Shown here: piece after piece, positions 12,960-32,025 of the stretch
Position numbering within the stretch: position 1 is the stretch's first letter
Layout of the letters: every line of letters starts with the position of its first letter
Assembly: GCA_025934775.1 (NCBI GenBank)
Contig: JAICWO010000006.1
Span: forward strand, 1 to 64,000
Direction of reading: 5' to 3'
Length of the DNA stretch: 64,000 bases
From: Gemmatimonadaceae bacterium
Lineage (GTDB): Bacteria > Gemmatimonadota > Gemmatimonadetes > Gemmatimonadales > Gemmatimonadaceae
Program-made: the position numbers and the translations under genes
Notes under the pieces: generated by a model
Told to the model about the DNA's origin: nothing
The model's database searches: none
Seen by the model: only the letters and a program-made list of their open reading frames with translations

Positions 12960-13313
12960 ATGGAAACGCAACGCCGGGGTTCGGATGGGAGGCGGCTCTT
13001 CAGCGCCGAGTTCAAGCGGGAGCAGGTCGCGCGCGTGCTGCGCAAGGAGATCACGTTTGCGGAGTTGAGCCGCGAGCTGGGCATCGATCAGTCGGTCGTT
13101 CGTCGGTGGCAGCACTTGGTCGATCGCGGGAGTCGCACGGCCGTGGCGGCGAACGAGGATGTCGTGCCGGCGAGCGAGCTCCGCGCGGCCCAGCTGCGCA
13201 TTCGGGAACTTGAACGCGCGCTCGGAAAGAAGACGATGGAGGTGGAGATCCTCCAGGCCGCGCGAGACGAAGTCAAAAAAAAGCCACGTTGGTACGGCGT
13301 GTCCAAGCGATGA
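12960..13313 (+). CDS. IS3-family transposase OrfA
   Basis: 117 residues with the IS3/IS911 helix-turn-helix: RLFSAEFKREQVARVL, then FAELSRELGIDQSVVRRW, followed by a leucine-zipper-like helix (AAQLRIRELERALGKKTMEV). It binds the element ends and dimerises. Near its end a run of eight A (13275-13282) provides a slippery site for -1 frameshifting into OrfB. Confidence 0.9.
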   Translation: METQRRGSDGRRLFSAEFKREQVARVLRKEITFAELSRELGIDQSVVRRWQHLVDRGSRTAVAANEDVVPASELRAAQLRIRELERALGKKTMEVEILQAARDEVKKKPRWYGVSKR

Positions 13314-14137
13314 CCGGCCGGAAGATCGCGCCCATCTGTCGGGTGCTCGGGATCGGCCGCGCCTCGGCGTACCGCAAAGAGAAGCCGCGTGGCCCGCGCT
13401 ACGTCAAGGCGGACGATCGCGTGGTGACGGCGCAGATTCGCGAGGTGATCCGCACGCGCGCCACGTACGGCTCGCGGCGGACGTGCGCGCTCGTGAATCG
13501 CGCCTTCGACACCGGCTATAACGGCAAGCGCATCCGGCGCGTGATGGACATCGCGGGCTGGAAGTTGCCGCGAAGCGCGCGGCGTCGGACGGGCCGCGCG
13601 CACACGGGGCAAGTACAACGCCCCGCGTCGAACGAGCGGTGGTGCAGCGATGGGCTCGAGGTCGCGTGCTGGAACGGCGAGTACATCCAGGTCGGCTTCG
13701 TCCTCGACTGCCACGATCGCGAGTGCCTCGCGTGGTGTGCGGTGCCCCGCGATCTCACGGCGCGGGACATTCAGCAGCTCATGCACGCCGCCGTGGCCCA
13801 GCGCTTCGGAGTGGGACGGCGCCCGGATGGGCCCATTCAATTCCTGAGCGACAACGGCTCGATCTACACCGCGCTCGACACGATCTGCACCGCGGAGCGA
13901 CTCAACCTCGAACCCATCACGACGCCGAAGGCCAGTCCGCAGTCGAACGGGATGTCGGAAGCCTTTGTGAACACGCTCAAGCGCGACTACGTGAGCGGGG
14001 CCGATCGGAGTGAGGCGGCCGCGCTACTCGACCAAGTTGCGCCCTGGATCGACGACTATAACGCGATCGCGCCGCACTCGGCGCTCGGCTACCGATCGCC
14101 CTGGCAGTACCGCGCCGAAGTGCTGGCATTGGTCTAA
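13289..14137 (+). CDS. IS3-family transposase OrfB (DDE integrase core)
   Basis: 282 residues in the -1 frame relative to OrfA: an HTH_21-like segment (YGSRRTCALVNRAF), then the rve integrase core with the DDE triad: D in WCSDGLEV, D in FLSDNGSIY, and E in GMSEAFVNTLKRDY, the classic IS3 ending. It is probably expressed mainly as an OrfAB fusion by slippage on the A8 run at 13275-13282. The frame looks intact, so the element may still be active. Confidence 0.9.
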   Translation: MVRRVQAMTGRKIAPICRVLGIGRASAYRKEKPRGPRYVKADDRVVTAQIREVIRTRATYGSRRTCALVNRAFDTGYNGKRIRRVMDIAGWKLPRSARRRTGRAHTGQVQRPASNERWCSDGLEVACWNGEYIQVGFVLDCHDRECLAWCAVPRDLTARDIQQLMHAAVAQRFGVGRRPDGPIQFLSDNGSIYTALDTICTAERLNLEPITTPKASPQSNGMSEAFVNTLKRDYVSGADRSEAAALLDQVAPWIDDYNAIAPHSALGYRSPWQYRAEVLALV

Positions 14138-14908: not shown

Positions 14909-15485
14909 CCGAAAGCCCGAGTACAGCGAAACACCAGAAGAGTTCCGGAGAGAGAAGTAGGGACGAGACAGGGCGGGACAAAATGCGCGCCGGCGGCACA
15001 TCGTGCGTGCCATCAACGGGCCTAAGCGCTCGCGGTTGCCGAGCTCAATGTCGCAGATCGTTCGCCAGGTTCACAAGAGCTGCTCGTTACGGGCGAAGCC
15101 AAGTGCGCTGGCCACGTATGGCTAAGGGATCAGTCACCAAGTCAGCGTCACTTCTCGTTCTGAGCGGCGGGAAGGCATAGGGGCGACAGCGGCGGTTTCA
15201 AACCCCTCGACTTGCTGAGACCAACGGCCGACTCTGCACATCGCATGTCCTATCGCGAGGGTTCGACGGTCTGGCCGCTTGCTGATTACTGCGGCTGATA
15301 TACCGGACTTAGACGCCGAGCATTAAAACGACTTTAATACGCGGACTGGCGCGGTCGCTCACTTGACGCTCTCGTTTCCACGTCGCAAACTCGTTTGGGA
15401 TGGTTCGCTTGATCGCGTCGGAACACGTACCCACTCCATAAACCTAGCGCGACGCCGTGCCGCGCTTGTCCGTAAGTCTGCGCCC
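14909..15485. other. Region without a recognised gene
   Basis: About 580 bases. Short rightward frames (for example 15118-15180, 20 residues) are not recognisable. Close to its right end is the ATTAAA-ACGAC-TTTAAT inverted repeat (15322-15338), and the promoter of the following operon most likely lies around it. Confidence 0.4.
15322..15338. promoter_or_regulatory. AT-rich inverted repeat upstream of the ATPase/kinase/regulator operon
   Basis: ATTAAA-ACGAC-TTTAAT, perfect 6-bp arms separated by 5 bases, about 150 bases before the ATPase start, in otherwise GC-rich DNA. A candidate operator or part of the promoter, possibly bound by the operon's own response regulator (inference). Confidence 0.4.
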
Positions 15486-17387
15486 ATGCAAAAAAGCAAC
15501 AGTTCAACGCGACAGCACGCGCATCATCGTGTAGTGCGCCTTCGAGTCACAGGAGGCTTTCTGGGCGGCGTCGATATTGAACTCGCCGATGGCCTGAACT
15601 GCTTCATCGGTGGACGCGGCGCCGGCAAGACTACTGCCCTTGAATTCCTGCGTTACGGACTTGGTTTGATGCCCGATGCAAAGGCCAGCCCGCAGCGGTT
15701 CAAAGCGCTCGACAGCCTCGTCCAGGCCAACTTGCGCGGTGGCCGACTAAACATCGAATTGAAGACGAAAGCTGAAATGCTCTACACGGCAAGACGAGCC
15801 GTAGGTGAGAGTGTGGAGGTATTGAATGAGCAGGGGGTCGCCGTCCCGGTAACTCTCGACCGAGATCATATTTTCAGCGCAGACGTCTTTAGCCAGAACC
15901 AGATTGAGGAGATTGCATCGAATCCGAATGCTCAGCTCGACCTACTCGACCGGTTCCAGGAGCAGGCATCGACAACTATTTCGCGGGAACTCGCGCAGTT
16001 GGATCAAGAACTCCAGCGGTCGAACGATCTCTTGCGTCGGTTAGATGAGGAGATGGATGCACTACGCGCGAAGGCGTCTGAAGCATCGGCTATCGAGGAA
16101 CGTCTGCGTGGCCTAATGGCAGTCGCCGGGCCGGACGCAGAGCGAATGAACTCTGCGCATGGAGCACAGGCCTTACGTGCTCGTGAGCAGCATTTGTTCC
16201 AGATCGCTCTCGATACTCTTGCTCGCCTGGCTACCAGCATCGCTGAAGCAGAGGCTGGGTTTGCCGCTTCGATTCGCGACCAATTTGACGAGGCAGTTCG
16301 CACGGGTGAAAACGGCGACATCCTCCGCAGCTTGGAATCAGAATTAAGCTCTCTTCAGGCCGCAGTCGGGCAAGCCCTTGATTCAATTCGATCCTCGTCT
16401 CGATCGACGGAATCTGCGATTCGTCGTTGGGTAACCGCGCTGGAAGAGCGTCATGCTGTTCAGGGCGCCGCGTACCGCGATCTTCTCGAACAGTCGAAGG
16501 AAGAGGGAGGGAGAGCGGCTGAGCGCGCGTCGCTTCAGGCTTCACTTGCGGCATCCCAGGCTGCTGCTATCGAGCTTCGCGCGAAGGAAAGGCAAAGAGG
16601 AGATGTTACTTCGGCGCGTCGGGCGCTTACGAATCGCGTCTCCGAGTTGCGCGATGATCGCTACTTACTTCGCAAGCGCGTGGCTGAACGCCTTACCCAG
16701 CAATTCACTGCGTTGCGAGTCAGCGTTGCTCAGGCCGCCGACCTGCAGGCCTATCGTGAACTGCTTGCCGCTCGTCTCAAGGGAGTGGGTGTAAAGCAAG
16801 GAATGGCGGCGGAGCGTATCTCCGAAGTGCTCTTGCCTGCGGAGTTGGCCGCCCTTCTGGCCGCCAACGACGTCAGAGCTATCGAGGATCGCTGCGGGTT
16901 TGAGGCGGAGAGGGCAAGGAAGATCGTCGATGCACTCCGTGCAGACGGCGGAGCGTACGACATTGAGATAGTCGACATTGAGGACCGGCCCTGCATCGAG
17001 TTACGAGACGGTGAGCAGTACAAAGAGTCGCCGCGACTATCAACTGGACAGCGATGCACCACGATACTGCCAATCCTACTTGTCCAGAATGAGCGGCCCT
17101 TGTTGATCGATCAGCCCGAAGACAATCTCGACAATGCATTCGTCTACGACACAATTGTAACAGCGCTTCGCGCCGTGAAGGGGAGCCGGCAAGTCATTCT
17201 TGTTACACACAATCCGAACATCCCCGTGTTGGGTGAAGCCGAACGTGTGTTCGTCTTCGCGTCCGATGGCCAGAATGCGCGGGTGCAGTCATCGGGAACA
17301 GTCGACGATTGCAAGGATCTGATCGAGCGTATTCTCGAAGGCGGTCGAGAAGCGTTTCTCGAGCGCAAGACGCGCTATGGTCATTGA
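15486..17387 (+). CDS. SMC/TrlF-like AAA (ABC-type) ATPase
   Basis: 633 residues from ATG 15486 (an upstream TTG at 15363 is less likely). N-terminal ABC half: VTGGFLGGVDIELADGLN then Walker A GGRGAGKTT (residues ~42-50) and a Q-loop-like region FSQNQIEEIA. A long coiled coil spans ~160-470. The C-terminal half has a signature-like LSTGQR and Walker B LLIDQPEDNLDN (~538-549) followed by VILVTHNPNIPVLG, as in TrlF/RecN/SMC-like ATPases found in defence genes. No PHP or nuclease domain is fused. It overlaps the kinase gene by 11 bases. Likely a DNA- or damage-sensing ATPase feeding the kinase (inference). Confidence 0.82.
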   Translation: MQKSNSSTRQHAHHRVVRLRVTGGFLGGVDIELADGLNCFIGGRGAGKTTALEFLRYGLGLMPDAKASPQRFKALDSLVQANLRGGRLNIELKTKAEMLYTARRAVGESVEVLNEQGVAVPVTLDRDHIFSADVFSQNQIEEIASNPNAQLDLLDRFQEQASTTISRELAQLDQELQRSNDLLRRLDEEMDALRAKASEASAIEERLRGLMAVAGPDAERMNSAHGAQALRAREQHLFQIALDTLARLATSIAEAEAGFAASIRDQFDEAVRTGENGDILRSLESELSSLQAAVGQALDSIRSSSRSTESAIRRWVTALEERHAVQGAAYRDLLEQSKEEGGRAAERASLQASLAASQAAAIELRAKERQRGDVTSARRALTNRVSELRDDRYLLRKRVAERLTQQFTALRVSVAQAADLQAYRELLAARLKGVGVKQGMAAERISEVLLPAELAALLAANDVRAIEDRCGFEAERARKIVDALRADGGAYDIEIVDIEDRPCIELRDGEQYKESPRLSTGQRCTTILPILLVQNERPLLIDQPEDNLDNAFVYDTIVTALRAVKGSRQVILVTHNPNIPVLGEAERVFVFASDGQNARVQSSGTVDDCKDLIERILEGGREAFLERKTRYGH

Positions 17388-18516
17388 AATCGACGACGGC
17401 GCCGGAGAGCCGTTACCGGCGTTCGTTGCAGCGTTGCGTGGCAATGACTGGGCTGACGTACTCGATGCTCTATCGCGAGCTGATACGTGGATTCGGGAGG
17501 CAATGCCGGGACACGCGCACGCCGCTTCCGTGACCGAAGCGGTTGCCGCTCTCGCAGATCATCCCAAGTGGGAAATCCGCCGTGCCGTCGCTCTCACCGC
17601 TGCGCACTGCCTCAGTCGCGCCTTTGAAGCCCCGCTCGTACGTCTCGTCGTCGATGACAACGCGCGAGTGCGCCAAGCCGCAGAGCAAGCAGTACTACGA
17701 CGACGTGATGGCCGTCAGGCGAGTCTGCTCGGCAAGCAACATGAAGACCGCATAAATGCCCTGCTCGAAGACATTGAGACGAGATTTGGTGTTCGCGGTC
17801 GCGCCGGCGTGAAGCGAGCGGCTGATGAGATTGCGAACCTCTTCGCGCGAGAACTCTACCACGAGGTAGTAAAGCTGCTTACACCACTCGCGGTGTCGGC
17901 GGAACGGTTGAAAGTCACTGTTGCGGCTGACACGCGCATTGCCGGCGAAGCGCACGCGGAGATCTCTCGCATAGATCGGCAAGTCCGGCAACTGCGTGCG
18001 GTGCTCGACGCGATGCGCTCCTATACGACCGTACCGCGGCTGAACTTCGCGAGTGAGACGCTGCGTGAAGTCGTGGACGAGGCGTGGGGTCTTGCACGAG
18101 TTGCGCGCACTGGCTTCGCAGTACCGGCGATCAAGATTGAGATGCCCGCAGAAGCGAGCGCGCAGGTCGCTCGCAGTCGGCTTGTTCAGGCGTTGACAAA
18201 CCTGCTGATGAACGCGATCGAAGCCTATGACGGAAGAGATTCGCGAGAGCCGATCTACGTCAGTGCAGACGCGCGGCAAGGGCACGTTGTTCTGGTGATT
18301 AAAGACAATGGCTGCGGGATGTCGCCGGAGGCCGTCGTCGATGCACGAACGCTGTTTGCGACGAATAAGCCGAACGGTACAGGGTTCGGCTTACCACTCG
18401 CGATCAAGATCATCGAGTCGGAGCATCGAGGTCGGTTGACGCTTAGGAGCGAACTCGATCAGGGTTGCGAAGTAGAGGTGATCCTCCCTCGCGAACAGGC
18501 GTTGGGCGAAACATGA
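17377..18516 (+). CDS. Soluble HEAT-repeat sensor histidine kinase
   Basis: 379 residues without membrane segments. Residues ~40-110 contain HEAT-like helices (WEIRRAVALTAAHCL; DDNARVRQAAEQAVLRR). A DHp-like helix carries a probable phospho-acceptor H162 in LYHEVVKLLTPL. The HATPase_c domain shows the N box NLLMNAIEA, the D box DNGCGM and the G2 box NGTGFGLPLAI. HEAT repeats normally bind proteins, so the input is likely a partner such as the ATPase encoded just upstream rather than a small ligand. It overlaps both neighbours (17377-17387; ATGA at 18513), one tight operon. Confidence 0.85.
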   Translation: MVIEIDDGAGEPLPAFVAALRGNDWADVLDALSRADTWIREAMPGHAHAASVTEAVAALADHPKWEIRRAVALTAAHCLSRAFEAPLVRLVVDDNARVRQAAEQAVLRRRDGRQASLLGKQHEDRINALLEDIETRFGVRGRAGVKRAADEIANLFARELYHEVVKLLTPLAVSAERLKVTVAADTRIAGEAHAEISRIDRQVRQLRAVLDAMRSYTTVPRLNFASETLREVVDEAWGLARVARTGFAVPAIKIEMPAEASAQVARSRLVQALTNLLMNAIEAYDGRDSREPIYVSADARQGHVVLVIKDNGCGMSPEAVVDARTLFATNKPNGTGFGLPLAIKIIESEHRGRLTLRSELDQGCEVEVILPREQALGET

Positions 18517-19367
18517 GTGAAGGGCACCTAGTACTTATAGTCGAGGATGACGCCGAGACCGCCGACGCGCTCCAGCAGATAGTTTCTGCAGAGGGCTGGC
18601 GCAGCGTCATTGTCGACAATCGAACCGATGCAGTAAGCCGTCTGCAGGCCAACAAGTTCTGTATTGTTATACTGGACTTGCAGATCAAAGGCGACGGCAA
18701 CGCAATCAAGGGGCACACGTCACACGGCAAAGCACTCTTGAGGCAAATCAGGCAACTGCATCAGGAGCACACAGGGCGGGCGTTTTGGTTGCCGGTGGTG
18801 GTAGTCAGCGGGTTCGCCTCCGAGCGCGCCGAGGCAATCGAAATCATGCGTGATGGCGCTGCAACTTTGATCGAAAAGCCATTCAAGGATCGGGTCATCG
18901 TAGAGAAGCTTCACGCCGAACTTGAGCGATGTGGCAGAGATACACACGAGCGCTGCTCGCGGCCACCAGTGTCGCAGCCCGAACCTGACGGCCAAGTCGC
19001 GATCGAGCTCCCGGGATCGCGCGATGGTCGGCGTACGGAAGTTCTAGTCGCCGGACACACCCTCAGCCTACCAGACAGCGAACTCCGGACGCTTCTTGAG
19101 CTGATCGCGGCGCATCAATCCGGCAAAACGGTCCACAAAGTTGCTCTTGGGCACAAGAAGCATCAAGGATTCAAAGCGGTCTCTCGTCTCCGGCTAGCCC
19201 TGAAACCAGCGCTTGGTAGCATCGACGTCATCACGAACGACCGTCACGGCGAGTATGGACTTACGAATGCCGTGGTCGTGCGCTGTTGCAACGCGGCAAA
19301 GTTCGGTGCAGTGGACGACGCTCGGATCATTTCCCTTGCAGAGACGATCGAAAAGAGCCTGAAATAG
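18513..19367 (+). CDS. Response regulator with OmpR-like C-terminal domain
   Basis: 284 residues from ATG 18513. The N-terminal receiver domain has the acidic pair in LIVEDDAE, phospho-acceptor D55 in VILDLQI, the Ser/Thr position in VVVSGFAS and the conserved Lys in IEKPFKD; there is a loop insertion after D55 (KGDGNAIKGHTSHG). The C-terminal part (~160-245, LSLPDSELRTLLELI; FKAVSRLRLALKP; NDRHGEYGL) follows the pattern of a Trans_reg_C winged helix. It probably converts kinase output into transcriptional control. It is the cognate partner of the HEAT-kinase by operon position. Confidence 0.85.
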   Translation: MSEGHLVLIVEDDAETADALQQIVSAEGWRSVIVDNRTDAVSRLQANKFCIVILDLQIKGDGNAIKGHTSHGKALLRQIRQLHQEHTGRAFWLPVVVVSGFASERAEAIEIMRDGAATLIEKPFKDRVIVEKLHAELERCGRDTHERCSRPPVSQPEPDGQVAIELPGSRDGRRTEVLVAGHTLSLPDSELRTLLELIAAHQSGKTVHKVALGHKKHQGFKAVSRLRLALKPALGSIDVITNDRHGEYGLTNAVVVRCCNAAKFGAVDDARIISLAETIEKSLK

Positions 19368-20917: not shown

Positions 20918-21973
20918 ATGCGCTCGCCTTCCGACCCGCTCAGCACATCGGCGTCGTCTGCACGTCCTCGCGCCGCCCCGACCGCAGGCCAAACGCGTCG
21001 GAGCGGTCGCAAGCGCGCCGAGGCCCCGCTATTAAGCCCACTGCGGTATCCGGGCTCGAAACGCCGATTGGCCACCCACGTCGGTGAGATTCTCGACCTC
21101 AATGAGCGTAGCCCCGAGCTCTTTGTGGAAGCATTCGCGGGCGGAGCGAGCGTCGCCATTCGCCTGCTCCAACTCGGGCGGGTCAAGTCGATTGGGCTCG
21201 TCGATCTCGACCCGATGATCGCGGCATTCTGGCGGACAGTGTTCTTTGATACAAAGTGGTTGTGCCGCGAGATCGCGAAGGTCCCCGTAACGCTGGCGCA
21301 GTGGGAGACCTACCGGGCGACGAAGCCGCGGAGCGACCGTACCCGCGCACTCGTCTGCCTCTTCCTCAATCGCACGAGCTTCTCGGGCATCTTGAATCCG
21401 CGGTCGGGTCCAATCGGCGGGTACGAACAGAAGGGCGAGTTCAAGATCGACTGCCGGTTCACCCGCGAGACGCTCATCGATCGCATCGAGAAAATCGCCG
21501 CGTATCGGGACCGCGTGGCGTTCATATGGAACACGTCTTGGGATCAAGCGTTGATGGACGTCCGGACGAAACAGGCCGCAGACGAACTCCCCCAGGATGT
21601 GTTCTACTACTTCGATCCGCCGTTTTTCGAGAAGGCCGAGAAGCTCTACACCTTCTACTTCGACGACGCCGACCACATCGCCCTTCGCGATGCCCTTGTC
21701 GACATGACCGACCATGCGCGCGAACCGTGGGTACTCAGTTACGACATGGCAGACCGGTTGGAAGAGCTATATGGCGACAGACCCGAGTCGACGCACATCG
21801 AGCTGCTGTACAGCACGTCGGGAGGCGGCGACCGAAGGGTGGCGACGGAGGTCATCCTGTCGAACCTGCCGAGGCTCCCGATCCCCTCGGTGGAGGACAA
21901 GCGCCGACGCTCCAAAGCCCACGGCGGCGAGCGACCGAAGGCTGCGAAGCCCCAAAAGACGCGGGTCGCATAG
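20918..21973 (+). CDS. D12-class N6-adenine DNA methyltransferase (Dam-like)
   Basis: 351 residues. After a ~35-residue basic leader comes PLRYPGSKRRLA (SAM-binding opening of the D12 family), FVEAFAGGASVAI (motif I), a region NRTSFSGILNPRSGPIGG, and the catalytic motif IV YYFDPPFF near residue 230. These residues define Dam/D12-type adenine methylases. It is the first gene of the run methylase-HerA-NurA-nuclease-like-CHAT and is most likely the self-marking component of a defence system. No adjacent classical restriction subunit is present. Confidence 0.88.
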   Translation: MRSPSDPLSTSASSARPRAAPTAGQTRRSGRKRAEAPLLSPLRYPGSKRRLATHVGEILDLNERSPELFVEAFAGGASVAIRLLQLGRVKSIGLVDLDPMIAAFWRTVFFDTKWLCREIAKVPVTLAQWETYRATKPRSDRTRALVCLFLNRTSFSGILNPRSGPIGGYEQKGEFKIDCRFTRETLIDRIEKIAAYRDRVAFIWNTSWDQALMDVRTKQAADELPQDVFYYFDPPFFEKAEKLYTFYFDDADHIALRDALVDMTDHAREPWVLSYDMADRLEELYGDRPESTHIELLYSTSGGGDRRVATEVILSNLPRLPIPSVEDKRRRSKAHGGERPKAAKPQKTRVA

Positions 21974-22224
21974 TGTATGCGCGCGGGTTGCCTCGAATGG
22001 GCGATATGCAGCCATGGCAGTCGCGGGCTTTGAGGCGAGGCCTTCCTCGCGGTCGCAGCGAATACTTGAGGATTCTATGATACGAGAGGATCCCGCCGGT
22101 CTCGGGCGCGAGGAGGAGCGGTGTGTCCCATCGGCCCCCGCACCCACGTTCCGTGCACCGCGGCGTGGGCCTGGATGCACCAAGCCGGGTTGGACAGAGT
22201 CAGCATGAACGTGCGGAGACCGAC
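21974..22224. other. Spacer between methylase and HerA genes
   Basis: About 250 bases. An open frame continues the HerA frame upstream (from 22123), but the composition and the ribosome site GGAG before ATG 22225 favour 22225 as the real start. It could hold an internal promoter. Confidence 0.4.
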
Positions 22225-24195
22225 ATGAACGTTGTCAACAAACTGGCCGCGAAACACAGCGCGTTACCCAAACTCGTTCAGCAGGACAATTTCGTCGGCT
22301 GGACGTACCAAGTCGGCTTCGACGCCGTGAAGGTGTTGACGAATGACGCTTTCAAACGGGCCGTTCGCGGAATCCCGCATAACGCCTTCCTGGTGGCGAC
22401 CTCGTTCGACCCCGAGAAGTTCATGTCCGTCGACGAGTTCGAGCAGGAGGTGCTGCTCCTTCGGGTTGTTGGCTCATGCCCTCTTCCACACGACAACGAC
22501 CTCACGCGCATCAAGGTTGATAGCGCGCAGGCGATCAAGGACAAGTTCGAGATGGTCGAAAAGACGACCGACACGCTGACCCAGGGCCAAATCCAGTACG
22601 GCGGCCTGGAGTGTCGGATCCTCGGGACGTTCTACATGCAGGACGGTGTACTCCATCTCGGAAGCGACCAGGAGACGTTCAGCGCCTCGGCGCGCCTGAG
22701 GGTCTTCCGCCCGAAAGGCGAGGCCCTACGCCTGATCGTGAACCACGTCGATCCGACGCGCGCGGCCCAGGCTGAGGAACTCGCGAAGGCGGCCGGCATG
22801 GCGACGATGCCGGAGCCGATCCGGATCGGCGACGTCCGCTACACGTCGACTGCCCGGCTGCATCGCGCGCAAGAGGAAGAGCTCGTACCAGTCACGATTT
22901 TCCCTCAGGACTTTCTCGCACGCCGGACTGCCGTGCTCGGGATGTCTCGTACCGGAAAGTCGAACACCGTCAAAACAATGGTGTCAGTCGTAAAGGGCGT
23001 GGCCGACAAGAGCGGCGTCAAGATTGGACAGATCATCTACGACATTAACGGCGAGTACGCCAACGCGAACCAGCAAGACAAGGGCTCGATCGCGGACATG
23101 TTCCCTCAGCACACCGTCCGCTATCGCATGGTGAAGACGCCCGGGTTTGAGGAGATGCAGAACAACTTCTACCGCCAGGTGGTCGAGGGCCACGCCATCA
23201 TCAGCAAAATCCTGTCGGAAGACAAGGCGAACAAAGCTGCGGGAGACGTCGAGGTGTTCCTCAACGCCTCATTCGAGGAGCCTGATCAGGCCGACGTCGG
23301 CGAACACAATCGCTGGCAGGTGCGCGTCGCGGCGTTCCAGGCGCTGCTCTACAAGGCCGGTTTCGAGGCCCCGGAGAACTTCAAGGTTCGCTTCAAGGCC
23401 AATCAGGGCGTCCTTGACGCGGTGAAGAAGGCGAACGCCTCGTGCAAGGACCCGTCAGCGGGCCTGACGCTCGATGACGCGATCGACTGGTTCGTTGCAC
23501 TCCGCAAGGCGAACAAGGAATCCGCGCTGAAGAGCTCCAGCGGGAAGGACTGGGTCGACACCGAGACCGACGCGATCCTGAACATGCTCGTCAATCAGAA
23601 CAAGAACGGCATCTACATCCGCGGCTTCAAGGTGCTCGTTCCGGCCCGGGATTACCACTCTCCGCGCCGCGCGCAGGAGGTCGGGGACGAGGTGTACGCC
23701 CATCTCGTCGCGGGCAAGATCGTCATCCTCGACCTCTCGGTCGGCGACCCGACGCTGCGGGAGCGCCTGAGCAAGCAGATCGCTGCCGACATCTTCAACA
23801 AGTCCATGGGCACGTTCATCACGGGGAAGACGCCACCGAACGTGATGATCTTCGTCGAGGAAGCCCACAACCTCCTCGGCCGGGGGATGGAGATCACGGA
23901 GACGTGGCCTCGGCTCGCGAAGGAGGGCTCGAAGTATCGTATCGGCTTGGTGTTCGCGACGCAGGAGGTGACTTCCATGCACCCGAACATTCTCGCCAAC
24001 ACCGAGAACTGGTTCGTGACGCACATCAACAATGCGAACGAGGTGAAGGAGCTGGCGAAGTTCTACGACTTCGCGGACTTCAGCGACTCCCTGATCCAGG
24101 CGCAGGACGTTGGCTTCGCCCGGGTGAAGACTCTGTCGAGCCCATTCGTCATCCCGGTCCAGATCAGCAAGTTCGACCCGAGCGCGCGGCAGTAG
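22225..24195 (+). CDS. HerA-type hexameric DNA translocase/ATPase
   Basis: 656 residues. The N-terminal ~200 residues form a beta-rich region like the HAS barrel of HerA. The motor domain has Walker A GMSRTGKSNT (~239-248), IIYDINGEYAN, and Walker B NVMIFVEEAHNLL (~538-550) followed by KEGSKYRIGLVFATQ. A helical insertion lies between ~310 and 460. HerA proteins pump DNA and work with the NurA nuclease; the NurA gene follows 36 bases later. In bacteria such pairs often belong to phage defence loci. Confidence 0.9.
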   Translation: MNVVNKLAAKHSALPKLVQQDNFVGWTYQVGFDAVKVLTNDAFKRAVRGIPHNAFLVATSFDPEKFMSVDEFEQEVLLLRVVGSCPLPHDNDLTRIKVDSAQAIKDKFEMVEKTTDTLTQGQIQYGGLECRILGTFYMQDGVLHLGSDQETFSASARLRVFRPKGEALRLIVNHVDPTRAAQAEELAKAAGMATMPEPIRIGDVRYTSTARLHRAQEEELVPVTIFPQDFLARRTAVLGMSRTGKSNTVKTMVSVVKGVADKSGVKIGQIIYDINGEYANANQQDKGSIADMFPQHTVRYRMVKTPGFEEMQNNFYRQVVEGHAIISKILSEDKANKAAGDVEVFLNASFEEPDQADVGEHNRWQVRVAAFQALLYKAGFEAPENFKVRFKANQGVLDAVKKANASCKDPSAGLTLDDAIDWFVALRKANKESALKSSSGKDWVDTETDAILNMLVNQNKNGIYIRGFKVLVPARDYHSPRRAQEVGDEVYAHLVAGKIVILDLSVGDPTLRERLSKQIAADIFNKSMGTFITGKTPPNVMIFVEEAHNLLGRGMEITETWPRLAKEGSKYRIGLVFATQEVTSMHPNILANTENWFVTHINNANEVKELAKFYDFADFSDSLIQAQDVGFARVKTLSSPFVIPVQISKFDPSARQ

Positions 24196-24231
24196 GCGGT
24201 CGAACGCCCTCAAGCCTGCCGAGTCGCCGCC

Positions 24232-25680
24232 ATGCCCTTCGAGAACGAGCGCTCCAACAAAACGTCGCACGGCGACGTGCTGCGGAATCCCGACGTAGTC
24301 AGCTTCCTCTCGCAGTGCCAGGTGATGACGCCGCCCACGGACGCAGAGGGCATGGCGTTCGCCTCGCAATTCGTCGATCCGCCCTCGCGCGATGGCGTCG
24401 ATCTGCCGCAGACCGTGATCGCCCTCGACGGGAGCCTCTACGAGTCCCAGGTCTACCCGGGGCAGTTGCCTAGCACGCGCGTCGGCTACGTGAAGGTCAG
24501 CACCTTTATGATCGACACTCACCAGTTCGCGGGAGTCGTCGACCAGGCCTCGGGCTTGGTTGACCCGTTCCGCCTGGCGAGGCTCCACGACGACGCCAGC
24601 GCGCTATCGATCGCTCTCCCGGGGCCCAACGTGCGCTACGGCGGTCGCGCCACGGTGCGCGAAGGATTCCGAGCTGCCCTTGAGAGGCACTTCCTCAGCC
24701 CCAACACGTGGGTTGACGACGACCCGAAAAAGAGCTTGCGGGCGACGCTCTTCGCGTTGGCGGCGAACCGCAGCCAGAAGTCGAGCCTCTACACGGGCGA
24801 TCCCAAGGTCATCCGGCTCCACAAGTGCCCGAACTGTGACGAGGTTGCTGGGCCAGGGCAGCGGATCGAAGTTCACGACGTCGCGGATCCTCAGCACTGC
24901 CCTCATTGCAGCGGCGAGATCTTCGCTACGGACTGCCTTCGCATTTGGGAGGCCGTGGCGGAAGGCGCCCCGATCGGCGAAGCCCTCGGTCGTACGATGT
25001 CTGTCGTCGAGCACATCATGCCGATGCACTACGCCCGCAACATTGCCGCGGCCGACCTGGACGCTATCTCCGGGGTCACGTTCTTCGTCGACGGACCGCT
25101 GGCCGTCTTCGGGAACGCTGCCTGGATCCACGCCGGCATTCTCCGGATGTACAACAAGATCAACACGTATCTCGTGGCCAAAGGACGCGAGCCGATGCAC
25201 ATGCTCGGGCTGCAGAAAACCGGCGGCCTCCGCGAGCACGTGGACCTCATCGAGCGCTTCGTCGGGCCCGACCGCATCCTGCCGGTAGGCGATGAGTATC
25301 GCTACAAGCATGTGTCGCCACGCGACGTGTCGCAGATGGACCCAAAGGACGAGATCGGTTTTGGCCTTGAGACCTATTATGGCCAGGACTTCATCTACAA
25401 GACGCCGGGTTCGAAGACCTTCGTGTTTGCCATCCCGTACCCCTTTGAGTCAAAAGCTGAGTCCAAGGCGCAGACGGGAAAGGCGTTCAAGCAGGCGAAG
25501 CTCGAACTGCAGCGGTATCCGAACCTCGCGAAGATCCTCAAGGTGCTCGACTACTTCGAGTCGGACCTCTACACAAACGCCAGCATCCCCCTCGCCCTCG
25601 CACATCAGCACACGGCGATCAGCCTCATGCCCGGCGGGAAGGTGCTGGACATCATGACGCACAAGAAGCTGACAAAATAG
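24232..25680 (+). CDS. NurA-domain nuclease with zinc-ribbon insertion
   Basis: 482 residues. The NurA signature is clear: a first catalytic aspartate in TVIALDGSLYESQV (~residue 67) and a second in TFFVDGPLAVFGNAAW (~286), followed by a helical region ending in YFESDLYTNASIPLALAHQHT with the late conserved His. Between them a zinc ribbon is inserted (CPNC around 199-202 and CPHC around 223-226). NurA is a 5'-3' exonuclease and endonuclease driven by HerA. The pair is most likely the DNA-destroying machine of this locus. Confidence 0.88.
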   Translation: MPFENERSNKTSHGDVLRNPDVVSFLSQCQVMTPPTDAEGMAFASQFVDPPSRDGVDLPQTVIALDGSLYESQVYPGQLPSTRVGYVKVSTFMIDTHQFAGVVDQASGLVDPFRLARLHDDASALSIALPGPNVRYGGRATVREGFRAALERHFLSPNTWVDDDPKKSLRATLFALAANRSQKSSLYTGDPKVIRLHKCPNCDEVAGPGQRIEVHDVADPQHCPHCSGEIFATDCLRIWEAVAEGAPIGEALGRTMSVVEHIMPMHYARNIAAADLDAISGVTFFVDGPLAVFGNAAWIHAGILRMYNKINTYLVAKGREPMHMLGLQKTGGLREHVDLIERFVGPDRILPVGDEYRYKHVSPRDVSQMDPKDEIGFGLETYYGQDFIYKTPGSKTFVFAIPYPFESKAESKAQTGKAFKQAKLELQRYPNLAKILKVLDYFESDLYTNASIPLALAHQHTAISLMPGGKVLDIMTHKKLTK

Positions 25681-25802
25681 TGCGGCTTGCCATGGTCGTC
25701 CCCACGCGCTCCGGGACATCGGGCGCGGCGTCGCCGGAGCCCGAACTCGTGGGCCGGCAGCCGGAGAGCCTTCGGACGCAGCTCTGCTAATCTCGCTACC
25801 GC

Positions 25803-28800
25803 ATGCAGTCACTCGTCCTTGCTACCGCTCGTGACCTCGCGCGATGGGCCGCCTACCGAACTGCGCAGGAGGAGCTGCCGACACTCGTTCGTCGGCTTAT
25901 CCACGCGACCACGACGACCGCGACGCGGGTGGGCATTCCCGCCGGCGATGCCGTGCAGATCGGCGGGTACGACGGCATCGTCGTAATCGCGGAGGACCAC
26001 GCCTTCGTCCCGAACGGAGCGTCAGTCTGGGAGATGGGCGTCACGGCGCACGTGGCGACCAAGGCGAACGGCGACTACGAGAAGCGGACGCGCGAGCAGC
26101 CGGTGAGCGATTGGGGCCGCGTCGTGCCGGCTGAAACGACGTTCGTGTTCGTGACTCCACGCCGCTGGCCGGCGAAGGCCGAGTGGGCGGAGGCGCGCCG
26201 GCGCGAAGGCGTATGGCGCGACGTGCGCGTACTCGACGCCGACGACCTTGAGGCGTGGCTCGAGCAAGCGCCGGCGACCCACGTCTGGTTCTCCGGGCGC
26301 GTAGGGGCGCGTCCGCCGGGGGCGGACGACCTCGGAGAGGTGTGGCAGGATTGGGCACAGAGCACGAATCCGCCGCTTTCGCCAGCGCTGATGTTCGCCG
26401 GCCGAGAGGGCTCGCGGGATGCGATTGCGGCTTGGCTTCGCGGTAGCGGAGGGCGACGCAGGCGCGACCTCGCCTACCCTCGGCGTCGAGTCGGAATCGC
26501 CGGAGGAGACCGTCGCGCTGATCGCCGCTGCCATCCAGTCCCTCGGGCCGGAGGAGCGCGTCGCCGCGCTTGCGCGCACCGTTCTGGTTCACGACGCCGA
26601 CGCCCTCACGCAACTTGCGGGCAGCGGCGAGCCCCTCGTCATCGTGTGTGGATTCGCACCGGGTGACCTCGCGCAACGCGCCGTGCGGGCGGGACACCGC
26701 GTGCTCATCCCGCGCGTCCGTGGGGAGGGCGTGACCGGCACGCTCAACGTGCCGCGACCTCACCGCGAGGCAGCGACCTCCGCGCTCGAGGTCATGGGTC
26801 TCTCGCACGACCGCGCGCGTGAGCTTGGTGGGCTTGCACGGCGGAGCATGCTCGCACTCCGGCGCAGGTTGGCCACGAGCGCGGCCGTCGGACAGCCGGC
26901 GTGGGCGGGTCCTGAGGTCGGCCCGAATCTGCTCCCAATGCTGCTCCTCGGAGCGCTGAACGATCAGATTGAGGGTGACCGCGATGTTCTGACGGCGCTT
27001 GCCGGTGAATCCGCCGACGCAGTGCTCGCGCGGTTGGTCGGCCTCGCGGCCGCCGCGGACCCTCCAGTACTTCGCAGGGGCAGCGTGTGGTACCTGGCGT
27101 CGAAGGCCGACGCTTGGGAGGCACTGTCCCGTTACATCGCCCGCACTCTGCTGGAGCGCTTCGAGACAGTGGCTGTTGGCGCGCTCGGTACTCCGGACCC
27201 GAGCTTCGAGCTGCCGCCCGACCAACGCTGGGCGGCAGGACTGTATCAGAAGAAGCGCGCGCATTCGGGGCTTCTTACGCGCTCGATTGCCGACACTCTT
27301 GCGCTCCTCGGGGCGCGGGTTGGCGTCGGGAGCGTGGGTGGCGGTATGACGGCCGCCGACATCGCCGCCAGGGCGGTGCGCCGCCTGTTCGAGCAGGCAG
27401 GCCGCGACTGGACTCGCTGGGCCTCGCTCGCGCCGGTGATGCCGTCACTTGCCGAGGCGGCGCCCGACGATTTTCTGAACGCGCTCGAGGCGGGGCTCGC
27501 GGGCGATGAGCCGTCGCCGGTCATGGGACTATTTGGCCACGACGTCGCTCACACCTTCTCGTCGTCTCCGCACACGCACTTGCTCTGGGCGCTCGAGCGG
27601 GTGGCGTGGAGCCCGGCGCTCCTCGGGAGGGCGGCCCTCGTGCTCGCGGAGCTCGCACGGCGTGACCCAGGAGGCTCGCTCCAGAACAGGCCACGTAAGA
27701 GCCTCCGGTCGATCTTCCTGCCGTGGATGTCCGCGACGGCGGCGCCGATGGAGACGCGCCTCGAAGTGATCGACTTGCTGCGCGAGCGTGAACCTGAGGC
27801 CGCGTGGGAGCTAATGGCGGACCTCCTCCCGCGCTGGCACGATTCGAACATGCGCGCCGGGCGGCCGGACTGGCGCGAGTGGGCCCCCCACGGGGAGACG
27901 CGCACGACTGGGATCGTTCTCGAGCGGCACGCCGAGGAGATGGTTCGTCGCCTCATCGCGGACGTAGGGACCGATGGGTCGCGGTGGCGCGTGCTGGTCG
28001 AAGCGGTCGACGATGTCCCGCTCGCGGCGCACGAGGCGCTCCTTGGGGCCCTCGCGGGCGCAGCGGATGCGGCTCTGCCTTCGGCGACGCGAACGGCGGT
28101 CTGGAACGCGCTGCGCGAGCTTCTCCACAGGCACCGCTCGGTCAACGAGGCTGACTGGCGGATGCCCGACGACCGGCTCGACGCCATCGACGGGATTTTC
28201 CGCCGCTTCGAGCCTGAGGAGCTGGTCGAGCGCTACGCCTGGCTCTTCTCGAACCGCCCTGCACTCCCGGACGGAAGGGGCGACTACCGCGACCACGGTC
28301 GTCGCGTCGAGGAACGTCGGATTGATGCCATGCGGGCCTGGTACCCGCTGCTCGGTGTATCGGGAGTCCTCGAGCTCGCCGCGCGGCTCGACCGGCCGGA
28401 CGCGCTCGGCCAGGCACTTGCCGAGACGCAGCTCGTCGAAGCAGGTGCGGACGAGGCGGCGTTCGTGCACTCCGCGCTCGCGAGCGCGGCACGCGGCGCG
28501 CGGGTGGCAGGACGAGCGTACCTCGTGACAGCGACGCGTTTGCGCGGACCGGACACGATCCCCGCACTGGTGGACGTCGAGGGCGCCGCGTGGCCGCACA
28601 CGGTCCGAGCGGAGGCGGTCTTGGCACTCCCTATGGGACAGTCCACATGGGCGATTGTGGATCGCCTCGACGACACCGGCCAGGCGCACTATTGGGGCGA
28701 GGCGCCGCACTTTTGGGTTGAGGGTCCCGACGTCGAGCGCGCGATGAGGGAGCTCGTTCGCCACGGTCGGGCGCAAGCCGCGCTTGACTTGGCGGCCGCG

Positions 28801-29625
28801 TATGCCGATAAGCCGCACGCACCTGTTGCAGCAGTCGTCAGGGAGACGCTGCTCGCCGCTGCCCGGCTTGCTCTCGACGCCAACGGAGAGCGTGTGTCGG
28901 GATATGAGATCACCACGCTGTTCGAGCTCCTCGAGCGGGCGGTGGCCGCCGGCGAGATCGGGGAAGAGGAGGTCGCACAACTCGAGCTCCTCTACCTTCC
29001 CGCGATCTCCGACGAGCGGCCGCCGCGGCTCCTCCACGCGGCCATGGGGCGTGAGCCAACCCTGTTCGTGGACGCGGCGTGCCTTGCCTTCCGTGGCGAG
29101 GGGGAGGCCCCACGCGACCTCACTCCGGAGGAGCAGGGGCGTGCGCAGCTTGCGTACGAGCTGCTGCACGGCTGGCGAACGCCCCCTGGGCTCGTGGATG
29201 GCGTGATCGACGGCGTGCAACTCATTGCATGGGTGACGGAGGCGCGGCGCCGCCTTGCGGAGGCGAACCGCGCGGCCATTGGGGACATCCTCATCGGAGA
29301 GCTGCTGAGCGGCTCGCCTCCGGGGACGGACGGCGCGTGGCCCGCGGAGCCTGTGCGTGACGTCATGGAGCAGACGCGGAGCGACGAGCTTCTGAGGGGC
29401 CTTCGGACCGGTCGCTTCAATCAGCGCGGCGTCGTGTCGAAGCACCCGCTCACTGGAGGAGCGCTCGAGCGTGCCATCGTCGAACGCTACGAGGCGGACG
29501 CGGCGACGGTCGCGGCGCGTTGGCCGCGGACTGCGGCCTTCCTTCGGAAATTTGCGCAGTCATACGCGCACGACGCCGAGCGGGAAGATCTCGACGCGGA
29601 GTTGCGGCACGACCTCGACTGGTAG
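25803..29625 (+). pseudogene. Large nuclease-like defence-type protein, split by one frameshift
   Basis: About 1270 residues when read across a frame change. The first frame from ATG 25803 runs through a probable Mrr/PD-(D/E)xK-like nuclease domain: YDGIVVIAEDHAFV, VWEMGVTAHVATKA, DYEKRT, then VFVTPRRWPAKAEW. It continues to FAGREGSRDAIAAWL near 26445. The +1 frame then carries on without a break to 29625 (ATSPTLGVESESPEETVALI onward), a long helical region without a clear P-loop. One extra G in the run at 26451-26453 explains the shift. It may be a true mutation, a sequencing error or programmed. Its place between NurA and CHAT genes makes it part of the same locus. Confidence 0.75.
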
Positions 29626-29787
29626 CCGCGTGCGGGAGCGGCGCTCGCTCGTGTCGCAGAGCGTCCAACCGCCGTGCGGCTATCTTGTGCGGGATGGGGG
29701 GCGACGCCGGCCATGCTTCCCGTCGCGCTCCCATCCAGTGTGCGCTGCCCTTCAACTTCACATCGTAAGGCCTCGCGCATCACGGTA

Positions 29788-32025
29788 GTGTCCACCTTTT
29801 CCGAAGCATTCCCCGCGTGGCACGCGGTGACGCGACATCCACACGACCGGCGCTGGCAGCTCGCCGCGCGCGCGGGCGATCCGCGCGTCCTGCACCACGC
29901 TCTGACGCTCCTCGATGACGAGCTTGAGGCCGTGTGGCCGCTGGGGTCCGACGCAGTGTTCGCCGTGGCGGCGGCGGTCAGCTGCGACACGGCGGAATCC
30001 GGTCCGGCACACCGCGCACTCATCAGGGCAGACGCAGTCGCAGCCCACGGCGATGGTATGCCTGTCCGTGTTGCGTTCTTGCGGTTGGCCGCGGTCAACG
30101 CCGCACTGGAGATCGCGTGCGGGTTCGGCCGGTGGGGCGATGCGTACGATCTGCTTCTTTGCGCGCTGGAAGATCGACCGCTGGTCACTGCTGCCCCAGG
30201 CGCACAGGCTGAGGTCATTGGCTGGGGCACGCGCCTTGGCGTGTTTTTGGGCTCGGCCGATCCGGTTGTCTTCGAGCAGGCTCCGCACGAAGTGCTGCGG
30301 TGGGCGGCTCGCGCCTACCAGGTCGGCCGCTCGTTCGGCGGCCCGCAGGACGCCCTTCGTGATGCCGCGACGGTGGTGCTTCGTGTCGCCAGGTCTGCCG
30401 GTCACACAGGAGACGCCGAAGCGCAGGTGCTCGTCGTGTCTGCCTTCTCGCAACTGGCATCGTGGGCGATGGCGTACCATGACGAAACTGTGTGGCAGGA
30501 TGCAGTGACGGGGTTGGAGGCGTTGCTCCTGGGCGGCCGCCTCGGCCCTGATGCCTGGGCGCAGGCGATCGTCACGCTGACGACGCGAGCGGGCGAGGTC
30601 GGGAGAGTTTCACCTGCCACGTGGGCCGCGCGAGCGCTCCCCCGCCTTGCGGAGCTCCCTGCCTCCCACCGACCGCTGGTGCTGCATGCAGCCGGCAAGG
30701 CGTTAGCTCTCGACAGGGAGGATGGTGTCTCGCCAGCGCTCCTCGCCGCGGCGGACGCGGCGAGTCAGGATGCCGTCGCTCAGGCCCACGGCGACCGGGC
30801 GGCGGACGCCATCATCCTCTCCCAGCACTACGACCACGTCCGCGGGGTGGTGAGCGCGCTCGCGAATCGAGGCCGTGTTTCAGCGGCCATGCGGCTTGCG
30901 GGACGGTGGTTCGGGGCGCGGCCGCCCCGACAGCGTTCGACCCTGTACTGCGCACCGTCAGATCCGCGGGGACCGACGTATGCGGTGGACGGTCGCGAAG
31001 TCGTGCTGGCGCGCGCCGACGCGGACGCCGCGCTCGCGCGAGTAACCTCGGCGACAGACGCAGCACTCGGTGGTTCCACCGTGATCCGTGACGCCCTCGC
31101 GCGCGGCAACCCGGAAGTCGACCCGAGGGCGCTCGTCCACGCCTCTGGCGCCGCCGAGTTCGAGTCAACGCTGCGCGACTTTTACCAGCTCGAGAGATTG
31201 GGCTCCGCATTCGCTCGCCAAGACCTCGCGGGTCTGGGCCTGTTCCTGCCGCACGTGTTCCGGCACCCTGTGCAGGCGCTGTTGCTTGAGGTGCTGGGGC
31301 ACGTGTTTCCGCTCGTCGCCAGCCACGAAGAGGCCGCTGCCGATCGACCGCTCCGCCGTGCCTTGGTCTGGACGGCCGGCGTGCAAACGGGAGAGGCTGA
31401 GACGCGCGTCGCGGTCGACGTCTTGGAGGCGAACGGCGTCGAAGTTGTTGACCTCACGAACCGCGACCTCACACCCGACCAACTGCTAGAGCACTACATC
31501 GATCCGTCGTACGACCTGCTCTGGCTCGTCGCGCACGGCGCATTCAACGCCGGGCGGCCGTCAGCATCGACGATTCAGCTTGACTGGGATGTCCGGCATT
31601 TCCTGACGCTCGATGCGTGGGCGGCCGCGGCCGTCCCCGCCACGAACGGCAGGCGTCTGCTCGTACTGAACCTCTGCGAGAGCGGAATCGCTCAACAGTC
31701 ACCGGCACCCCCGCGCGTCGGATTCGGCCCGCTCCTCGCCAGCAGGCACCAAGCCGTAGTAGGACACCTTTGGTCGGTAGAAACGATGGCGGCCGTCGCG
31801 TTTGGCGCGCTGCTAGTCGTCCGCCTGTCGGAGGGCGCATCGTACGTCGACGCCTTCGCGTGCGCCCTCCGTGCGCTGCGCAGTACGTCGAGCGACATCG
31901 CAACGGCGCTAGAGCGACTCGGCGCGGCCGCGACTGACGTGGCCACGCGGCTTCGCTTCGGCCGCGATGACGTCTTGGCGGATCGCGGGGTACTGACATG
32001 GGGCTCGCCCGCGTTCTTCGAATGA
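29788..32025 (+). CDS. CHAT-domain (caspase-like) protease with helical N-terminal region
   Basis: 745 residues from the GTG at 29788; in-frame starts at 29674 and 29713 are possible but add odd sequence. Residues ~1-480 are helical, TPR/HEAT-like, without clear motifs. The C-terminal CHAT domain has the catalytic dyad H583 in LLWLVAHGAFN and C630 in LLVLNLCESG, then the family signature GHLWSVETMAAVAF. CHAT proteases cut partner proteins to start abortive responses, as in Craspase or gasdermin loci; no gasdermin is visible here. Its likely substrates are products of the neighbouring genes. The sequence is very GC-rich like the four genes before it. Confidence 0.85.
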   Translation: MSTFSEAFPAWHAVTRHPHDRRWQLAARAGDPRVLHHALTLLDDELEAVWPLGSDAVFAVAAAVSCDTAESGPAHRALIRADAVAAHGDGMPVRVAFLRLAAVNAALEIACGFGRWGDAYDLLLCALEDRPLVTAAPGAQAEVIGWGTRLGVFLGSADPVVFEQAPHEVLRWAARAYQVGRSFGGPQDALRDAATVVLRVARSAGHTGDAEAQVLVVSAFSQLASWAMAYHDETVWQDAVTGLEALLLGGRLGPDAWAQAIVTLTTRAGEVGRVSPATWAARALPRLAELPASHRPLVLHAAGKALALDREDGVSPALLAAADAASQDAVAQAHGDRAADAIILSQHYDHVRGVVSALANRGRVSAAMRLAGRWFGARPPRQRSTLYCAPSDPRGPTYAVDGREVVLARADADAALARVTSATDAALGGSTVIRDALARGNPEVDPRALVHASGAAEFESTLRDFYQLERLGSAFARQDLAGLGLFLPHVFRHPVQALLLEVLGHVFPLVASHEEAAADRPLRRALVWTAGVQTGEAETRVAVDVLEANGVEVVDLTNRDLTPDQLLEHYIDPSYDLLWLVAHGAFNAGRPSASTIQLDWDVRHFLTLDAWAAAAVPATNGRRLLVLNLCESGIAQQSPAPPRVGFGPLLASRHQAVVGHLWSVETMAAVAFGALLVVRLSEGASYVDAFACALRALRSTSSDIATALERLGAAATDVATRLRFGRDDVLADRGVLTWGSPAFFE

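Follow-up and report, generated by a model that had tools for sequence, protein, structure and literature searches.

A D12-class adenine methylase, a HerA-type translocase and a NurA-like nuclease are encoded one after another in a 64,000-nucleotide stretch from a Gemmatimonadaceae bacterium (assembly GCA_025934775.1, contig JAICWO010000006.1, positions 1 to 64,000; hereafter the window). We consider it probable, at about two chances in three, that they form a mobile, restriction-modification-like three-gene module which degrades unmarked DNA, and that the large gene and the CHAT protease gene lying downstream are separate neighbours. The trio is a widespread and, in the catalogues tested, apparently unnamed cassette: no name for it was found in PADLOC, Pfam, NCBIfam or the openly accessible journal papers searched.

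Genes of the module and their setting

The preliminary description of this locus had listed five same-strand genes with short gaps. Five consecutive genes are indeed present on the + strand of the window (ORFs 20918-21973, 22123-24195, 24232-25680, 26419-29625 and 29674-32025), but the fourth, the large gene, turned out not to be a single open frame. The first, second and fifth ORFs were assigned to families by Pfam, PADLOC or NCBIfam (D12 methylase, DUF87/HerA and CHAT, respectively), and the third (NurA) and fourth (large) ORFs had no match to any family of these three collections.

The first gene of the module (20918..21973, +) encodes a D12-class N6-adenine DNA methyltransferase, in line with the adenine methylase with a DPPF motif proposed earlier: the protein matches PF02086 of Pfam (5.6e-12) and the PADLOC models PD-Lambda-5_B (9.1e-74) and MTase_II (5.7e-52), and the motif is intact at residues 233-236. 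The second gene (22225..24195, +) encodes a HerA-type hexameric DNA translocase. A GTG start at 22123 is possible, but the ATG at 22225 agrees better with relatives; the gap to the methylase gene is 149 bp in the former case and 251 bp in the latter. The protein matches DUF87 of Pfam (1.1e-8), and the intact Walker A and Walker B motifs ascribed to it previously were both found (GMSRTGKSN and FVEEAHN). Among solved chains TdpA was the best match, with 4.6e-29 by profile (the next being 2.8e-14) and 3.1e-19 with a single sequence. TdpA was also the top Foldseek match of the AlphaFold model (pLDDT 85.7; 6e-27, next family 2e-20). In structural comparison TdpA scored a Z of 30.2, level with a defence HerA (29.2), and the fold of the model matches Sulfolobus and Thermococcus HerA as well.

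The third gene (24232..25680, +) starts 36 bp downstream of HerA. The sequence of its product gave no match in the PDB either, and its fold was revealed only by structure prediction. The model (pLDDT 91.8) matched TdpB with a Z of 20.2 over 314 residues and Sulfolobus NurA with a Z of 15.1, as well as Thermococcus NurA, which points to a NurA/TdpB-like RNase H-fold nuclease. The protein has about 480 residues, compared with 358 modelled residues in TdpB, and contains an inserted zinc-ribbon-like region with a CxxC...CxxC pair. Judging from this model and from an alignment, it probably retains both catalytic aspartates that had been attributed to it: D66 is conserved in 51 of the 53 aligned proteins and D287 in 47, and D234, R237 and E240 are likewise conserved.

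The G+C content is 0.61-0.63 from the methylase to NurA versus 0.69-0.70 in the large and CHAT genes, with a step at 25.7 kb. Neither a terminator nor a promoter signal was seen when looked for at the NurA/large-gene junction, and no clear terminator was found between any of the five genes. On the scale of the window, G+C is mostly lower from its start to about 26 kb (0.58-0.66) and mostly 0.65-0.73 in the remainder. With this lower G+C and an IS3-type transposase gene (rve, HTH_21) at 13289-14137 (+), the setting of the module seems to be an acquired island. Also upstream, at 15363-19367 (+), three closely packed genes are possibly a two-component-controlled defence cassette. They encode a TrlF-family AAA ATPase devoid of the N-terminal part of the model (the match to NF045780 begins at its position 282), a HEAT-repeat protein that also has an ATPase domain of the histidine-kinase type, and a protein with a receiver domain.

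Conservation, spread and divergence of the trio

When 84,980 genomes, one per species, were scanned with a HerA alignment, 461 HerA relatives were obtained. The loci of the best 80 of these were collected with flanks of up to 10 kb, a set in which distant forms are under-sampled. NurA directly follows HerA in 64 of the best 80 of 461 loci, and a D12 methylase homologue directly adjoins the pair in at least 57 of the 80, locus L040 being additionally scored through a second methylase. The median gaps are as short as 5 bp and 2 bp in the 39 trios that are strictly adjacent, and DPPF/DPPY or SPPY is kept in every methylase of usable length in the related loci. Hosts of these loci include Chloroflexota, Bacillota, Pseudomonadota, Bacteroidota, Cyanobacteriota and archaea; no match was obtained in the E. 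coli genomes searched. As this HerA occurs in only about 5 of the 295 genomes of the window's class, acquisition of the module is probable.

The distances among HerA proteins and among NurA proteins were strongly correlated (Spearman 0.85-0.88), versus 0.26-0.44 between the methylase and either of them. The proteins of loci L045 and L047, for instance, share 73% identity in HerA and 63% in NurA, and 32% in the methylase; in this pair, as in L055/L074 and L047/L048, HerA proteins about 70% identical go with methylases only 31-33% identical. As read from these sequences, HerA and NurA diverge together and the methylase is swapped, the pattern of a marking component that can be exchanged on a motor-nuclease that is itself conserved. 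In deeper branches (Nonomuraea, Phycisphaeraceae, Halorarius, Deferribacter and genome G018), the methylase beside HerA-NurA is of an unrelated SPPY type, and in relatives on cyanobacterial plasmids HerA and NurA are present and an adjacent methylase is absent.

Copies of the module are found on plasmids and beside integrases. In two Vibrio temperate phages HerA, NurA and the methylase lie between the integrase and the excisionase, a usual cargo site, and IMG/VR contigs also carry the trio; scans of viral contigs with NurA alone or CHAT alone as a query returned no match. The neighbours of the trio include Schlafen AlbA (PDC-S50), UvrD/GajB-like helicases and other methylases, and defence-type genes, not transfer genes, are the commonest. 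The occurrence of the trio across phyla, its prophage and plasmid carriage, these neighbours, and TdpAB as the nearest solved relative give good support to a defence-like unit of methylase, HerA and NurA, a part of the earlier proposal.

Two kinds of loci contain an additional gene. A UvrD-type helicase gene follows NurA in eight loci (L018, L020, L022, L024, L025, L027, L028 and L030), mostly of Chloroflexota-like hosts, and overlaps the NurA stop codon in several of them; one of the three helicases scanned has a possible C-terminal PD-(D/E)xK domain. These loci are a four-gene variant of the module. Another four-gene variant, mostly from Bacillota, has Schlafen AlbA directly before the methylase (12 genome loci and one viral contig: L032-L036, L038-L041, L044, L075, L091 and L127), with PADLOC PDC-S50 among those scanned. 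A different situation was observed in Verrucomicrobia subdivision 3, in which HerA occurs without NurA or the methylase (L051, L057, L061-L063, L065, L070-L073, L080 and L081) in a repeated chromosomal setting, adjoining aspS in several loci; this HerA is seemingly domesticated and vertically inherited.

The large gene and the CHAT gene

The large gene (25803..29625, +) had been described as encoding a protein with a PD-(D/E)xK-like N-terminal domain. The domain is present (GYDG ... WEMGV ... K, within ORF 25803-26666), but it belongs to the first of two ORFs, as the gene switches frame near 26,450, from ORF 25803-26666 to ORF 26419-29625. In plasmid relatives both parts are contained in a single frame of 1320-1356 aa, after an exchangeable helix-turn-helix domain; therefore, a frameshift, due either to real decay or to a sequencing error, breaks the gene here. 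A relative 60% identical to it, in genome G035, is also broken, at different points, and another one (L123) is divided into two overlapping ORFs.

Relatives of the large gene were found in 11 of the other 394 genomes sampled from the phylum, mostly standing alone and as one ORF of about 1320-1465 aa. A CHAT domain is altogether absent from ten of the 11 genomes and lies about 330 kb away in the remaining one. Plasmid-borne large genes sit among toxin-antitoxin genes or backbone genes. The family, represented for instance at L113 (5089-9159), L114 (5098-9135), L115 (5071-9033) and L119 (7865-12013), is unannotated, and its members consist of the exchangeable helix-turn-helix part, the PD-(D/E)xK-like domain and about 1000 further residues that match nothing in Pfam or PADLOC. 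We regard it as a candidate single-gene defence family.

The CHAT gene (29674..32025, +) is a full-length BovA, and thus a protein already named, in PADLOC, as that of the Borvo system. Its product matches BovA (PDLC03832) with 9.7e-87 over residues 133-783 and the CHAT domain of Pfam with 5.9e-11. The His-Cys dyad reported earlier as H583 and C630 is intact, but in the numbering of ORF 29674-32025 it is H621 and C668, as the earlier start was placed 38 residues later. A BovA CHAT protein with its dyad is what makes up Borvo, which was originally described as a one-gene system (PMC12322248; PMC10952713); in the window this system is represented by the neighbouring gene and is no part of the module. 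In the same 394 genomes the CHAT gene has no full-length relative and one weak partial match. The large and CHAT genes were also considered as a pair of their own, and this was rejected in view of 11 relatives of the former versus no full-length relative of the latter.

Relation to known systems and possible function

In the TdpABC system of Thermus, self DNA receives phosphorothioate from TdpC, and restriction is the part of TdpAB; an antiphage role of the system has been published. TdpAB (PDB 8wet, 8wfd) is the nearest solved relative of the module's HerA in sequence and fold and of its NurA in fold, and both systems combine a motor, an RNase H-fold nuclease and a DNA-marking enzyme. They differ in the marking enzyme, which is an adenine methylase in the module and a sulphur-transfer enzyme in TdpABC, and the sequence identity is low (about 15-20%). 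The locus contains a TdpA-like motor with a TdpB-like nuclease beside it, but a methylase in the place of a TdpC-type enzyme (with enzyme class as a proxy); the genome has a single PF01507 (PAPS-reductase-type) gene, which lies on another contig (C5 instead of C21). Since TdpA and TdpB came out independently as the nearest relatives, the module resembles a TdpAB motor-nuclease with a methylase replacing the sulphur-marking enzyme. Other systems share single features with it. HerA-SIR2 (Nezha) and HerA-DUF4297 join a HerA motor to an effector enzyme in phage defence, but the effector is another one and a methylase is missing. PD-Lambda-5 provides the best PADLOC match of the methylase (its component B), but HerA and NurA are not its components, and PD-Lambda-5_A was not matched by any of the nine window proteins scanned. 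In the wide sense of restriction-modification, the module has a methylase genetically linked to a nuclease.

From this we infer an antiviral role, with methyl sensing and degradation of unmarked DNA. The D12 methylase would mark the cell's own DNA, a hexamer of the TdpA-like HerA would pump double-stranded DNA into a dimer of the TdpB-like NurA, and NurA would degrade DNA lacking the mark, e.g., injected phage DNA; both downstream genes, large and CHAT (Borvo), would be separate neighbours in a defence-gene cluster. As close HerA-NurA pairs go with very different methylases, they probably do not read one fixed site; the specificity would then come from the methylase, or else the motor would recognise the mark in a more general way. 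More tentatively, and at somewhat less than even odds, the module may represent a new class of restriction-modification, in which a processive TdpAB-type translocase-nuclease works without a site-specific endonuclease and is guarded by an interchangeable methylase, of adenine or another type, so that both the chemistry of the mark (sulphur or methyl) and its site could be swapped.

The preliminary description had instead suggested that all five genes may be one system, in which restriction is combined with a protease-driven back-up; in the form considered here, the large protein and the CHAT protease would provide an abortive response. The genes are consecutive, share a strand, are separated by short gaps and have no clear terminator between them, which would fit such a system, but when conservation of the gene order was checked, relatives of the large or CHAT gene were present in none of the best 80 of 461 HerA loci, an outcome that the preliminary description itself had named as a refutation. 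In addition, the frame of the large gene is broken here and its relatives mostly stand alone, genomes with a large gene lack CHAT in ten of 11 cases, BovA was originally a system of one gene, and G+C changes at the NurA/large-gene junction. We therefore rejected the five-gene system, which we regard as highly improbable; a protease back-up tied to restriction found no support. An unlikely explanation, if clearly less so, is that HerA and NurA are a bacterial repair pair resecting the ends of double-strand breaks, with the methylase as a chance neighbour. End resection is the function of HerA-NurA in archaea and Deinococcus, and these proteins resemble the pair studied here in pairing and fold, including that of the Sulfolobus and Thermococcus proteins, but they have no methylase and a housekeeping role. 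The constancy of the methylase, directly beside the pair in most of the best 80 of 461 loci and across phyla, and the patchy spread of HerA within the class make this explanation less likely, and the one clade with a seemingly vertical HerA, that of Verrucomicrobia, has neither NurA nor the methylase.

Marginally more plausible than repair, though still improbable, is a function in DNA donation or in the machinery of mobile elements, in which HerA would export chromosomal DNA or handle the DNA of an element, as TdtA does in ICETh1 of Thermus thermophilus. The tdtA operon of this mobile element is the closest methylase-NurA-HerA operon to have been studied by experiment. It unites the same three functions, a NurA-like nuclease, a HerA/FtsK motor and a methylase (PMC5365140), and without NurA or TdtA donation is abolished or much reduced (PMC5365140, PMC7767461); the plasmid-borne and integrase-associated copies of the module would also fit. 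As far as the described gene content can be compared, the operon differs in its order (type IIG enzyme, NurA, motor, methylase), in its methylase of N4/N6 type (pfam01555) and in having DNA donation as its demonstrated function (PMC5365140). The type IIG enzyme is required for Thermus donation (PMC5365140), but none lies beside the trio in the window, nor is it a regular neighbour of the relatives. Moreover, the trio occurs as cargo in temperate phages, and these package their DNA themselves; the prevalence of defence-type over transfer genes around related loci also argues against donation.

If the restriction-modification-like reading is correct, the TdpAB-type motor-nuclease would be a general back end guarded by different marks, and phosphorothioation would be linked to ordinary methylation. 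It would also pose the question of how one motor-nuclease respects many methylation marks. The trio is common, with 461 relatives, crosses phyla and extends to archaea, and is carried by phages and plasmids, and its natural methylase swaps allow this to be tested.
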